Assembly: GCA_001628005.1 (NCBI GenBank)
Contig: LUQU01000050.1
Span: forward strand, 1-55,543
From: SAR86 cluster bacterium REDSEA-S09_B4
GTDB taxonomy: Bacteria > Pseudomonadota > Gammaproteobacteria > Magnimaribacterales > Magnimaribacteraceae
DNA: 55,543 nt
Direction of reading: 5' to 3'
A program made the position numbers and the translations under genes. The notes beneath the pieces were generated by a model. The model searched no databases and was not told the origin of the DNA. It saw only the letters and a list, made by a program, of their open reading frames with translations. Positions 20,271 to 24,316 of the stretch are shown in pieces (the first letter of the stretch is position 1; each line of letters starts with the position of its first letter).

Positions 20271-20870
20271 GTGATAAAAACAGCTAAACCTCAATATCTT
20301 TTGCAAAGATCAATTATCTTACTTACCGTAATATTTTTTGCTTTTTATGTGCTTTACGATCTCAATCTTTTAAAACTAATATTTGAATCAGACAGAAGCA
20401 AGATCTCCATTCTCATTTTAGGTATTTATACAGCTGCTACTTTCCATTGGATTTACATTGCTAGTAATTTAGATTACGAAATAAAAGGAGAGGGCAAGGT
20501 TGCAGATTTCTTGAATGCAGTCGGGTCAAAGTCTTCTTCAGAAAGTCAAAGCCTTTTAAGGATACTTGAAGACGAACTATCGAATAGGCATGCACTGGGT
20601 CATATGATTTCCGATGTTTTATTAAAACTCGGCTTAACGGGGACAGTTGTTGGATTTATTCTCATGCTTTTGCCTATTGGTGAAATGAAAGACTTTGATC
20701 CAGAAAAAATACAACCTTTACTTTCCTCCATGAGTGGAGGAATGGCTGTTGCCTTGTATACCACGCTTTCTGGTTTGATCACCAGCACCATGCTCAAGTT
20801 TCAGTATTTTTTGCTTGATTCATCGCTTAGTAAATTAATTAATGGTCTTACTTCTGGAGACTTGGATTAA
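20271..20870 (+). CDS. MotA/TolQ/ExbB-like proton channel protein
   Basis: A 199-residue membrane protein with four predicted helices: about 14-33, 45-66, 116-136 and 150-172, with a cytoplasmic loop of about 50 residues between the second and third. The last two helices carry the channel family pattern GLTGTVVGFILML (121-133) and GGMAVALYTTLSGLI (156-170), close to MotA and ExbB/TolQ. The GTG start at 20271 is the best placed. The next gene encodes an ExbD/MotB-like partner 10 bases downstream, so the pair should form an ion-driven motor complex in the inner membrane. It is not tolQ or exbB of a standard cluster: no tonB, tolA, tolB or pal is nearby. Confidence 0.78.
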   Translation: MIKTAKPQYLLQRSIILLTVIFFAFYVLYDLNLLKLIFESDRSKISILILGIYTAATFHWIYIASNLDYEIKGEGKVADFLNAVGSKSSSESQSLLRILEDELSNRHALGHMISDVLLKLGLTGTVVGFILMLLPIGEMKDFDPEKIQPLLSSMSGGMAVALYTTLSGLITSTMLKFQYFLLDSSLSKLINGLTSGDLD

Positions 20871-20879
20871 GGGATTTAA

Positions 20880-21518
20880 ATGAAACACAGAATCCTTAAT
20901 AACGGGGAAGGGCAAGACGCTTTCACAGATTTACTTTTTAATTCCCTTTTAGGATTTGCCTTCATGTTCGCCATTGCGTTCATGTTGATTTCAGATCCCA
21001 GCGATGGCGGCAAGATAGACTCTAAAGCAGAAATTCTTATTTCTGTTAGATGGCCAGATCAGCACCCTGATGACGTAGATGCCATAGTAGAAAGTCCTCA
21101 AGGAGGATTAGTTTGGTATCACAACCGAGACACTGGACTTATGCATTTAGATAGGGATGACAGAGGAATATTTGCAGATAAGATGAATGTTAATGGGGCT
21201 ACGATTTCGAACCCCATCAATCAAGAAACGATTACCATTAGAGCACTTCAATCAGGTGAATACGTAGTTAACCTTCTTCACTACCAAGCAAATTATGATA
21301 AGCCTCTGTCTGTGGATGTTAAGGTAGAAAAACTTAATCCTGAAGTCGAGCTGGTTTATTACGGTAGCCATGAATTGAAGGGAGTGGGGGATGAGAAAAC
21401 TGCTGTTAGATTTTCAATCGACTCAAAAAAGAATATATCTGATGTAAATCAGATTCAGAAAAGGTTGCTTACAAAAGCTTTAGGCAGAAATTCCTTAATA
21501 GAAAATAAAAGTGATTGA
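20880..21518 (+). CDS. ExbD/MotB-like stator protein with beta-rich periplasmic domain
   Basis: A 212-residue protein with one membrane helix near the N-terminus (about 15-37). Asp17 in DAFTDLLFNSLLGFAFMF sits where ExbD, TolR and MotB have their proton-carrying Asp. The periplasmic part (about 45-200) is unlike the short ExbD/TolR fold or the OmpA domain of MotB: AEILISVRWPDQHPDDVDAI, then ESPQGGLVWYHNRDTGLM and a later GEYVVNLLHY strand, resembling the DUF2135/YfaP-type beta-sandwich. That resemblance is by eye. It is coupled to the third gene by an 8-base overlap. Confidence 0.7.
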   Translation: MKHRILNNGEGQDAFTDLLFNSLLGFAFMFAIAFMLISDPSDGGKIDSKAEILISVRWPDQHPDDVDAIVESPQGGLVWYHNRDTGLMHLDRDDRGIFADKMNVNGATISNPINQETITIRALQSGEYVVNLLHYQANYDKPLSVDVKVEKLNPEVELVYYGSHELKGVGDEKTAVRFSIDSKKNISDVNQIQKRLLTKALGRNSLIENKSD

Positions 21519-22071
21519 AGAAAGGGTTTTTTTGATTTTAGGCTATGTAGCCATTTCGGCTTTACTTTTAATATTCATACTTTATTCATCTTTCTCAGGT
21601 AAATTAAAAACGCTTGTTGTTTTCATCATGGCTTCCTTTTATGTATTCACCTGGATGGGCTATAAGCAAATATTGGGATGGCCATCTACACAAGTGATTC
21701 CTGATGAATTTAGACTTGTTTGGGTCTCTATAGACGAGCCAGATAAATTTACTAAACGGGAAGGTGAAATTCACTTTTGGATAAGGTACCAAGATGATGC
21801 GGGTATACCAGTAGGAAGACCAAGGGCTTTTAGCCTAATCTGGAGCGAAGAAAATCATAAAATGGCACAATCTGCTTTACTTCAACTTAAAGAAGGAACT
21901 CAACTTAATGGTAAAAAAACTTATGGAGTTCTTGATGCCAATAAATTCGATGAAAACGCAAATCCTTATGAAGAGTCAGAATCTATCAATACTCAGGCAG
22001 GAAATCCTTCTTTCGAATTTCAAGAAGTAGCTCCGCCAAGCTTACCTCCTAAGACTAAATTCGAAAACTAA
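21511..22071 (+). CDS. Two-helix membrane protein of the ExbB/ExbD-like cassette
   Basis: A 186-residue protein with two membrane helices (about 7-26 and 33-49), then a periplasmic-facing or cytoplasmic soluble part of about 135 residues with alternating strands (FRLVWVSIDEPDKF, GEIHFWIRYQDD) and a Pro-rich end. I do not recognise a family. It begins with GTG eight bases before the previous stop, so it must be translationally coupled and is probably a subunit of the same complex. It ends 4 bases from the convergent PQQ dehydrogenase gene. Confidence 0.68.
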   Translation: MIEERVFLILGYVAISALLLIFILYSSFSGKLKTLVVFIMASFYVFTWMGYKQILGWPSTQVIPDEFRLVWVSIDEPDKFTKREGEIHFWIRYQDDAGIPVGRPRAFSLIWSEENHKMAQSALLQLKEGTQLNGKKTYGVLDANKFDENANPYEESESINTQAGNPSFEFQEVAPPSLPPKTKFEN

Positions 22072-22075
22072 TCAA

Positions 22076-24316
22076 TTAGTCCTCTTCTTCACCAAACCAA
22101 GTGAATTGAGGAGCCTCCATATTTCCTAAAGCCACCTCTCTGTCTTCATAAGCTCTGGCTCTGACATAATGGTGAATATTATCTACTTCTTCTTCTGAGA
22201 GAACATCTGAAAAACCAGCCATGCCATTGCTTCCCAGTATTCCTTCTAGAACTATTTTATTAAATAGGTCATGGGTTCCTGTAGTCATCTTTCTTAAATC
22301 TGGTAACCCGCCAGCAGATTTAACTATAAAACCATGGCATACCGCACAATATTGATTGTAATTACTCTCACCATTTCGGATTTGAGCTACATTGACATCA
22401 GCAAGTTTTTGTTCAGGAATAGTTGTATCTCTTACATCAGGTATAGGAAGCTTCTCATTGCCACCTAGTTTAAAAACTAACAATCTACCAAAATTATTGT
22501 AGGTAAGAGAAGCTTGTATTTCTATCGGCGGTAAAGGCTCTCCTCCAAATAGATCCCCCCCACCAGATCCTGTTAAAACTGACACATACTGTTCTCCATC
22601 TATTTCAAAAGAAATTGGAGGGGCAAGCATGGAAGTATAGGTGTTAAATTCCCATAAACGTTCTCCTGTTTCCTTATCGTAAGCAGAGAACATGCCTAAG
22701 GCATCTCCTTGAAAAACTAGTCCTCCAGCAGTACCGAGAACTCCTCCATTCCAGTAATGTGGGATAGGTACTGACCATTTAGTTTCACCAGTTAGAGGGT
22801 TAAAAGCCTTAAGAAAACCTCCTGGTTCAGGCATTGATTCTAGGTTTGCAAGTACATTTTGGGCTAAAGAACTCATTTCTATACCCATATTCCATCTGCC
22901 CGGATTTCTTTTATATATGCCTGTCTTCTTATAGTTGTCATCAATTGCATAGAAGAAGGCATTTTCTTGGGCAGGTATGTAAACAAGGCCTGAATCCAAA
23001 TCTACTGACATTGCTTGCCAATTATGAGCACCTAAAGGTCCTGGCAGAACAAAAGATCCATTTTTAGAGTAATCCACATCAGGATTTTCAACTGGTCTTC
23101 CAGTTTCCAGATCAACATGAGTAGCCCAGGTAACAGCTGCAAAAGGGTGAGCCCTTAGCACCTTTCCATTGGATCTATCTATGACGTAGAAAAATCCGTT
23201 TTTTGGTGCTTGCAGTAATACTTTCTTCTGTTCTCCATCTACCTCCATATCAGCCAAAGCCATATCTTGCACAGCTGTGTAGTCCCAATTATCTTCAGGA
23301 GTAGTTTGATAGTGCCATTTGTATTTACCGGTATCAGCATCAACAGCAACTATAGAAGCTAAGAATAAATTATCTCCTCCTCCAGGAGATCTAATTTCTC
23401 TTGTCCATGGAGATCCATTGCCAACCCCTAAATAGACATTATTAAAATCTGGGTCATAGACAATTGAGTTCCAAACAGTACCTCCGCCACCAAATTCCCA
23501 CCAATTAGTACCTTTCCAGGTCTTGGCAGCCATTTCCATAGCGGGATCTTCAAACCCTAAAGACGGATCCCCTGGAACAGTAAAAAATCTCCATACTTGT
23601 TCGCCCGTTTCACTATCGTAGGCTGTTACATAACCCCTGACACCGTACTCAGCACCGCCATTACCTATAAAAACCTTGCCTTTTGCTACTCTAGGAGCAC
23701 CAGTAATCGTATAGGCTCTAGAGCGATCAGTAATGGTGTCTACTTCCCATATCTTTTCTCCTGTTTCGGCATTAAGTGAAAATAATCTTCCATCTAGGCT
23801 TGCAAAAAAGACTTTTCCTTCATAAACAGCAACCCCTCTATTAACTATGTCACAACAGGCTTTGCGTGCCCATTCACCTGGAACTTCTGGATCAAATTTC
23901 CATATAGTTTTCCCAGTTTTAGCTTCTACTGCATAAACCCGACTCCAGGTACTAGTAAAGAACATAATGCCATCAACAACAATTGGCGTAGCTTCAAGAG
24001 CCCTGTTGGTTCCCATATCTTTGTACCAAGCCAATCCTAGATCAGAAACACTATCTTTATTAATTTTTAATAAAGGAGAAAATCTTTGTTCTTCATAAGT
24101 TCTTCCGTGAGCTATCCAGTTTCCTGGTTCGCTTTCTGCATTTATAATTCTTTCATCATCTATGAGTCCAACTGAAGGCGAAGACTCTATTGGAGAGCTA
24201 ATCTCTTCTTTAACAATATTCTCTTGAGTAGGCTCTTCAGTATCCGCAAACAGGTAATAAAGAACTACGATTACAATTGCACCTAAAGTAAATGCAAATG
24301 GGAAAGGTTTATTCAT
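22076..24316 (-). CDS. Membrane-anchored PQQ-dependent alcohol dehydrogenase with haem c domain
   Basis: A periplasmic quinohaemoprotein of 746 residues. The N-terminus is an uncleaved-looking anchor (about 6-23) and a 40-residue acidic linker. An eight-bladed PQQ propeller follows (about 65-620): vicinal cysteines Cys154-Cys155 in KACCD, metal ligands Glu223, Asn300 and catalytic Asp345 in NWDYTA. The residue two after Asp345 is Thr, not the Asp seen in lanthanide enzymes, so calcium is expected. A C-terminal cytochrome c domain has CAVCH at 657-661 and a likely distal Met699. It should oxidise an alcohol or aldehyde and pass electrons to a cytochrome c or quinone. No PQQ synthesis genes are in the window. 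Confidence 0.9.
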   Translation of the reverse strand: MNKPFPFAFTLGAIVIVVLYYLFADTEEPTQENIVKEEISSPIESSPSVGLIDDERIINAESEPGNWIAHGRTYEEQRFSPLLKINKDSVSDLGLAWYKDMGTNRALEATPIVVDGIMFFTSTWSRVYAVEAKTGKTIWKFDPEVPGEWARKACCDIVNRGVAVYEGKVFFASLDGRLFSLNAETGEKIWEVDTITDRSRAYTITGAPRVAKGKVFIGNGGAEYGVRGYVTAYDSETGEQVWRFFTVPGDPSLGFEDPAMEMAAKTWKGTNWWEFGGGGTVWNSIVYDPDFNNVYLGVGNGSPWTREIRSPGGGDNLFLASIVAVDADTGKYKWHYQTTPEDNWDYTAVQDMALADMEVDGEQKKVLLQAPKNGFFYVIDRSNGKVLRAHPFAAVTWATHVDLETGRPVENPDVDYSKNGSFVLPGPLGAHNWQAMSVDLDSGLVYIPAQENAFFYAIDDNYKKTGIYKRNPGRWNMGIEMSSLAQNVLANLESMPEPGGFLKAFNPLTGETKWSVPIPHYWNGGVLGTAGGLVFQGDALGMFSAYDKETGERLWEFNTYTSMLAPPISFEIDGEQYVSVLTGSGGGDLFGGEPLPPIEIQASLTYNNFGRLLVFKLGGNEKLPIPDVRDTTIPEQKLADVNVAQIRNGESNYNQYCAVCHGFIVKSAGGLPDLRKMTTGTHDLFNKIVLEGILGSNGMAGFSDVLSEEEVDNIHHYVRARAYEDREVALGNMEAPQFTWFGEEED

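Follow-up and report, generated by a model that had tools for sequence, protein, structure and literature searches.

What work does a three-gene cassette with the marks of an ion-driven motor perform in a SAR86 bacterium, and for which client? The cassette lies in the window, the whole of the 55,543-nt contig LUQU01000050.1 of SAR86 cluster bacterium REDSEA-S09_B4, where three genes are packed tightly on one strand within a 1.67 Mb draft genome. A sequence-only reading of this stretch had proposed an undescribed proton-driven complex for envelope transport, mechanical or defence work. Our analysis confirmed the observation and partly supported the interpretation, and it brought to light three elements absent from that reading: a convergent PQQ alcohol dehydrogenase, the occurrence of the cassette in phages, and a fusion of gene 3 to a lysozyme in some of them. 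The features of the locus are as follows.

20271..20870, + strand: gene 1, MotA/TolQ/ExbB-family channel subunit (199 aa, GTG start) with a short cytoplasmic loop, the motifs GLTGTVVGF and GGMAVALYTTLSGL, and invariant D41, G121, G124, T165 and G168
20763..20765, + strand: Thr165 codon of gene 1, in the motif of the fourth TM helix, invariant in 69/69 homologues
20880..21518, + strand: gene 2, a single TM helix (residues 9-37) followed by a periplasmic beta-sandwich (52-190) (212 aa, ATG start)
20928..20930, + strand: Asp17 codon of gene 2, candidate ion carrier, invariant in 69/69 homologues
21511..22071, + strand: gene 3 (186 aa, GTG start), two TM helices with a small alpha/beta domain behind them and a tail rich in proline
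22076..24316, - strand: PQQ-dependent alcohol dehydrogenase with a C-terminal PedF-like cytochrome c, convergent neighbour (TIGR03075)

As the sequence-only reading had stated, no Tol (TolA, TolB, Pal), Ton (TonB) or flagellar gene adjoins the trio. The other MotA_ExbB and ExbD matches of the genome are located on two further contigs, one carrying TolQ-TolR-like genes (C55) and the other ExbB-ExbB-ExbD-like genes (C31), and the trio is therefore an additional system in this organism.

Its sequence places gene 1 in the MotA/TolQ/ExbB ion-channel superfamily. The Pfam MotA_ExbB family (PF01618) matched it with 34.5 bits, above the curated cut-off of 22.9 (E = 2e-8), and a profile built from 69 gene 1 sequences matched the solved chains of MotA (8gqy, 4e-7), TolQ (9kpz, 4e-6), ExbB (5sv0) and PomA (8brd), with E values between 4e-7 and 6e-3 over the four. 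The five invariant residues listed above were found in all 69 diverse rows and T125, G128 and A161 were kept in at least 67 of them, so that the pore-helix motifs G..GT..G and A...T..G are both conserved. The MotA/ExbB pattern that had been recognized by eye (GLTGTVVGF and GGMAVALYTT) thus holds at the level of family. More specific assignments were weak: the NCBIfam PomA model scored far under its cut-off (21.9 vs 341 bits), and ZorA profiles matched only at E = 1e-4.

The AlphaFold2 model of gene 2 (mean pLDDT 83.7) comprises one TM helix at residues 9-37 and a periplasmic beta-sandwich. Asp17 is positioned in the membrane helix, in agreement with the single helix and stator-like aspartate read from the sequence, and gene 2 therefore has what a 5:2 motor requires of a partner subunit, a single TM helix with a conserved Asp. 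The remaining residues invariant across the 69 rows were W58, D65, D67, L90, D93, D94, G96, E116, R121 and G126, and the acidic cluster among them looks, from the sequence, like a metal site. Neither the ExbD/TolR family (PF02472) nor an OmpA-like peptidoglycan-binding domain was detected in gene 2 by Pfam search or by fold, as had been proposed. The further suggestion of a DUF2135/YfaP-type domain held in part: the beta-sandwich was predicted and a weak resemblance is real (9 of 65 gene 2 homologues, best E = 0.0039), but the protein of the window itself gave no DUF2135 match, no profile match exceeded the curated cut-off, and PF09906 had zero matches across 41 genomes including the window's own, leaving a weak lead only. 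When searched against the PDB with Foldseek, the gene 2 model returned Ig-like noise and nothing confident. Its fold also resembles a domain of large uncharacterised phage proteins in BFVD (models S0A5K4 and I7JBZ3, from Cellulophaga phage phi4:1 and Campylobacter phage CP21; Foldseek E values of 1e-5 to 1e-4).

Gene 3 was modelled (pLDDT 84.3) as a helical hairpin of two TM helices (2-25 and 30-55) with a small alpha/beta domain. The loop between the two helices is basic, suggesting that both ends of the protein lie on the outside. The two helices had been noticed before; the accompanying claim that gene 3 is translated from within gene 2 did not stand, since the genes share only an ordinary 8 bp overlap (gene 3 start at 21511, gene 2 stop at 21518) and gene 3 is not nested. 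No relative of gene 2 or gene 3 was found by profile searches of the PDB, and Foldseek gave no match for gene 3. The periplasmic domains of both proteins are thus apparently new, as judged from these searches and from models whose input alignments were built without GenBank phage rows.

The trio is conserved as a unit. Gene order was kept in 28/28 SAR86-family loci uncut by a contig end. A GTDB search, in which 488 of 536 candidate stretches encoded relatives, yielded 80 bacterial loci; all three genes were present in 78, the remaining two being cut by the contig end at gene 1. Among viral loci the full trio was found in 262/271, with gene 1 present wherever there was room for it and gene 3 absent despite room in three only; many of the loci counted here are MAG or predicted viral contigs. 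The neighbourhood survey that had been set as a refuting check on the sequence-only reading therefore did not refute it. Insertions into the cassette do occur: locus L103 has an extra gene between genes 1 and 2, and Sinorhizobium phage NV1.1.1 carries at the same place a gene that by eye resembles a GIY-YIG homing endonuclease (L032:4312-5049). Among congeneric SAR86 genomes dN/dS was 0.02-0.13, and this constraint, together with the gene order shared by bacteria and phages, argues against a chance arrangement or a pseudogene, an explanation we rejected.

Only one family of the SAR86 order has the cassette, in 9 of 10 genomes at least 85% complete, as compared with 0/65 in three other families. 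We also rejected a prophage remnant as its origin in SAR86, given that the cassette is flanked by nth-, glyA-, nrdR- and ribD-like genes and is fixed across the family. In a 91-row gene 2 tree, the chromosomal bacterial copies formed one clade (support 88/99), and the viral copies were more diverse and did not form one. This pattern, in a tree rooted only at its midpoint, suggests that the gene passed long ago between viruses and bacteria, in either direction. Myxococcota MAGs that carry the cassette may be misbinned or may be recipients of transfer. Divergent cassettes that are prophage-like or chromid-borne were also seen in alphaproteobacteria (L242-L244 and L195), branching separately from the chromosomal clade, and no PQQ dehydrogenase over the cut-off was found in the three sampled genomes of L242-L244.

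In the bacterial setting, the most consistent neighbour is a quinoprotein. The convergent gene at 22076..24316 matched TIGR03075 with 629 bits (cut-off 480), and the same PQQ alcohol dehydrogenase is convergent with gene 3 in 68 of the 80 bacterial loci; outside SAR86 the remaining neighbours vary from clade to clade. Quinoprotein-associated NCBIfam families occur near the cassette at L228, L231 and L238, those recorded in related loci being a SoxYZ-like carrier (TIGR04557), a MoxJ-like protein (TIGR03871) and PedF (TIGR04494). At L232 the cassette is part of a co-directional array in the order PQQ alcohol dehydrogenase, PedF-like cytochrome c, MoxJ-like, SoxYZ-like, metallohydrolase, rhodanese-like, genes 1, 2 and 3, and a lipoprotein, in which the dehydrogenase and the rhodanese-like protein were matched to families and the rest assigned by eye because they resemble proteins that were tested in other loci. 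Across the 397 sampled genomes of the phylum, a PQQ alcohol dehydrogenase over the cut-off was present in all 21 genomes with a strong cassette match and in 116/397 overall, a hand count from two tables that ignores relatedness, 11 of the 21 genomes belonging to one family. The four genomes with weak cassette matches only had none.

From this linkage we infer a functional tie between the cassette and the dehydrogenase. The enzyme does not always need the cassette: eight genomes of the SAR86 order encode a PQQ alcohol dehydrogenase and lack the trio, so that any dependence would be one-way. The dehydrogenase is mostly non-adjacent in a family that is tentatively Bradyrhizobium-like (f60), and at L229 and L234 an L,D-transpeptidase stands upstream of gene 1 instead of a PQQ neighbour. 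In these two loci (L229:8357-10845 and L234:7635-11253) the cassette is situated downstream of the YkuD L,D-transpeptidase, called by family match in L229 and by similarity in L234, and of a small exported protein. A vWA-FHA gene occurs downstream of the cassette in L229, and L234 has a tandem duplicate of gene 3.

A tblastn search of phages with gene 1 returned no phage match even though phage homologues exist, their sequences being too divergent, and a single-protein query of viral contigs likewise found nothing; relatives emerged with alignment queries, four scans of IMG/VR giving 152, 432, 114 and 42 (overlapping sets). Sequenced Rhizobium and Sinorhizobium phages encode gene 2 relatives at 40% identity (E = 5e-28) within a full trio. 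In these rhizobial phages the trio comes after the lysis region: of 23 phage or prophage loci, 22 have an exported trypsin-like protease abutting gene 1 and 18 have an upstream wall hydrolase (GH19-like, GH24 or amidase, the GH19 match being under the Pfam cut-off). Rz-like proteins coexist with the trio in 10 of the 23, and the trio is therefore not a simple spanin replacement. In 101 nonredundant complete viral loci, serine proteases made up 21/401 of the nearest genes as compared with 9/763 farther off, an enrichment that is overstated because search seeds were taken from neighbours and the loci are related. A serine protease was lacking within two genes in 80 of the 101 loci, and lysis genes, present in rhizobial phages and in the fusion lineage described below, are absent near many marine phage loci, so a role at the wall may fit some phages only; no neighbour is common to all viral loci. 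In several large phages (L137, L160, L179 and L184) a ClpS adaptor gene lies directly 3' of gene 3, and an Hsp20-like gene is frequently close by.

Thirteen marine viral contigs (L192, L194, L251-L259, L261 and L262) have gene 3 joined in frame to a GH24 lysozyme, two of these fusions lying at the following positions:

L192:2460-3353: gene 3-lysozyme fusion
L194:2388-3278: gene 3-lysozyme fusion

In the seven contigs tested with Pfam, the lysozyme portion gave a full-length match to PF00959 (E = 1e-45 to 3e-49); the others were assigned by alignment. At the junction, a start codon was kept in 13/13 contigs (ATG in 11, GTG in 2), preceded in 13/13 by a Shine-Dalgarno-like AAGGAGAT or TGAGGAT. 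This conserved internal start suggests that these phages make the lysozyme in both a tethered and a free form, and, provided that the wall is its target, the fused lysozyme is consistent with gene 3 ends on the outside. A ClpP-like gene occurs just upstream of gene 1 wherever the fusion contigs cover that region.

On balance, we favour a reading in which the cassette encodes a three-subunit inner-membrane complex driven by protons (or sodium), whose client differs by lineage. Gene 1 would form a channel ring of the MotA/TolQ/ExbB type, presumably in a 5:2 complex. By homology, ions would pass between the helices of gene 1 and Asp17 in the single-helix partner, gene 2, with Asp17 acting as the ion carrier and the beta-sandwich being moved in the periplasm relative to the ring; the hairpin and periplasmic domain of gene 3 would couple this motion to the client. 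In some phages the client would be the cell wall or envelope, given that gene 3 can bear a lysozyme and that lysis and protease genes are neighbours, and it is for the wall in these phages that genetic support for a client is most direct. In this bacterial clade linkage points to the periplasmic PQQ alcohol-oxidation system, for which the cassette probably performs energised envelope work, namely cofactor or metal loading, or substrate access. More tentatively, and as a possibility we would not yet bet on, tailed phages may have a PMF-driven motor unit of their own as part of the programme by which they break or remodel the host envelope, with one lineage having its endolysin both tethered to the third subunit and free via the internal start, and with one ancient bacterial lineage sharing the machine in a rewired form that energises PQQ alcohol oxidation in the periplasm.

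A single tree and a single architecture with differing partners would also be expected of a machine that serves envelope integrity in general and, as an analogue of Tol-Pal, acts in every carrier on peptidoglycan or the outer membrane, in which case the quinoprotein linkage would merely reflect the envelope stress or regulation that accompanies periplasmic alcohol oxidation. The gene 3-lysozyme fusions agree with such a machine, as do the L,D-transpeptidase upstream of gene 1 (L229 and L234) and the vWA-FHA gene downstream (L229). We nevertheless regard this explanation as rather unlikely, with TolQ-TolR-like genes already in the genome and a quinoprotein linkage (in-operon at L232; co-occurrence in 21/21 genomes) tighter than a stress response predicts. 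That linkage would also be expected if the cassette were dedicated to handling PQQ, calcium or lanthanides, with the gene 2 acidic cluster (D65, D67, D91, D93, D94 and E116) binding the metal or chelate and the PMF driving its delivery or insertion into the dehydrogenase. The conserved residues are of metal-site type, and according to one report (PMC11996626) PQQ alcohol dehydrogenases need Ca or lanthanides. However, phage copies without a neighbouring quinoprotein keep the same acidic residues; the site is therefore not peculiar to metal handling for PQQ, and we consider this alternative improbable.

Carriage of the trio by phages and the weak ZorA matches of gene 1 (E = 1e-4) could instead speak for an ion-leak device, either an anti-phage one resembling Zorya or one for superinfection exclusion by phages. 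We give this very little credence: there is no OmpA-type ZorB, no long ZorA tail and no effector gene, and in SAR86 the operon is fixed among metabolic and housekeeping genes, unlike mobile defence islands. Nothing thus points to defence, which the sequence-only reading had named among the possible roles.

We found no description of the cassette in the open-access literature searched, including papers on how MotAB evolved, on the ped cluster, on lanthanide metabolism in the ocean and on rhizobial prophages. Only a few MotA/TolQ/ExbB motors have been characterised (Mot, Ton, Tol, gliding and Zorya), and their periplasmic partners form a small common set. If the favoured reading is true, the superfamily gains a motor whose two periplasmic domains are apparently new and which is found both in hundreds of viral contigs and, as a resident operon, in bacteria abundant in the ocean. 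The reading would also provide a testable link between the PMF and wall degradation by phages, and add an energised component to quinoprotein alcohol oxidation. We know of no earlier phage-carried motor unit of this superfamily, of which the cassette would be the first.

How, then, does the cassette compare with known systems? Tests for the second-subunit domains or partners that define Tol/Ton, flagellar stators and Zorya found none of them, and we therefore rejected all three assignments. As compared with DUF2135/YfaP-like proteins, which it resembles in the beta-sandwich and the weak profile matches, the gene 2 domain is TM-anchored within a motor-like operon, and no solved structure matches it confidently. 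The position of the trio behind the lysis region in rhizobial phages and the union of gene 3 with lysozyme in one lineage recall phage lysis modules (holin, endolysin, spanin); to our knowledge, no lysis system has a channel of the MotA/TolQ/ExbB type. The likeness to ZorA-ZorB is confined to gene 1, which at 199 aa has no long cytoplasmic tail, whereas genes 2 and 3 have no profile match to that system. MotA-MotB and PomA-PomB share with the cassette the profile matches of gene 1 and the membrane Asp of gene 2, and differ in the peptidoglycan-binding domain that gene 2 lacks and in the cytoplasmic loop, which is short in gene 1. There is also a correspondence with TolQ-TolR and ExbB-ExbD: gene 1 is a homologue of their A subunit, the single TM helix of gene 2 with its invariant Asp has its equivalent in ExbD and TolR, and the set is rounded off by a third envelope protein, in the manner of TolA or TonB. 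Here a beta-sandwich takes the place of the ExbD/TolR domain, gene 3 combines a hairpin with a new domain, the neighbours are not tol or ton genes and phages are among the carriers; by its likeness to all three kinds of motor, the cassette may work as they do.
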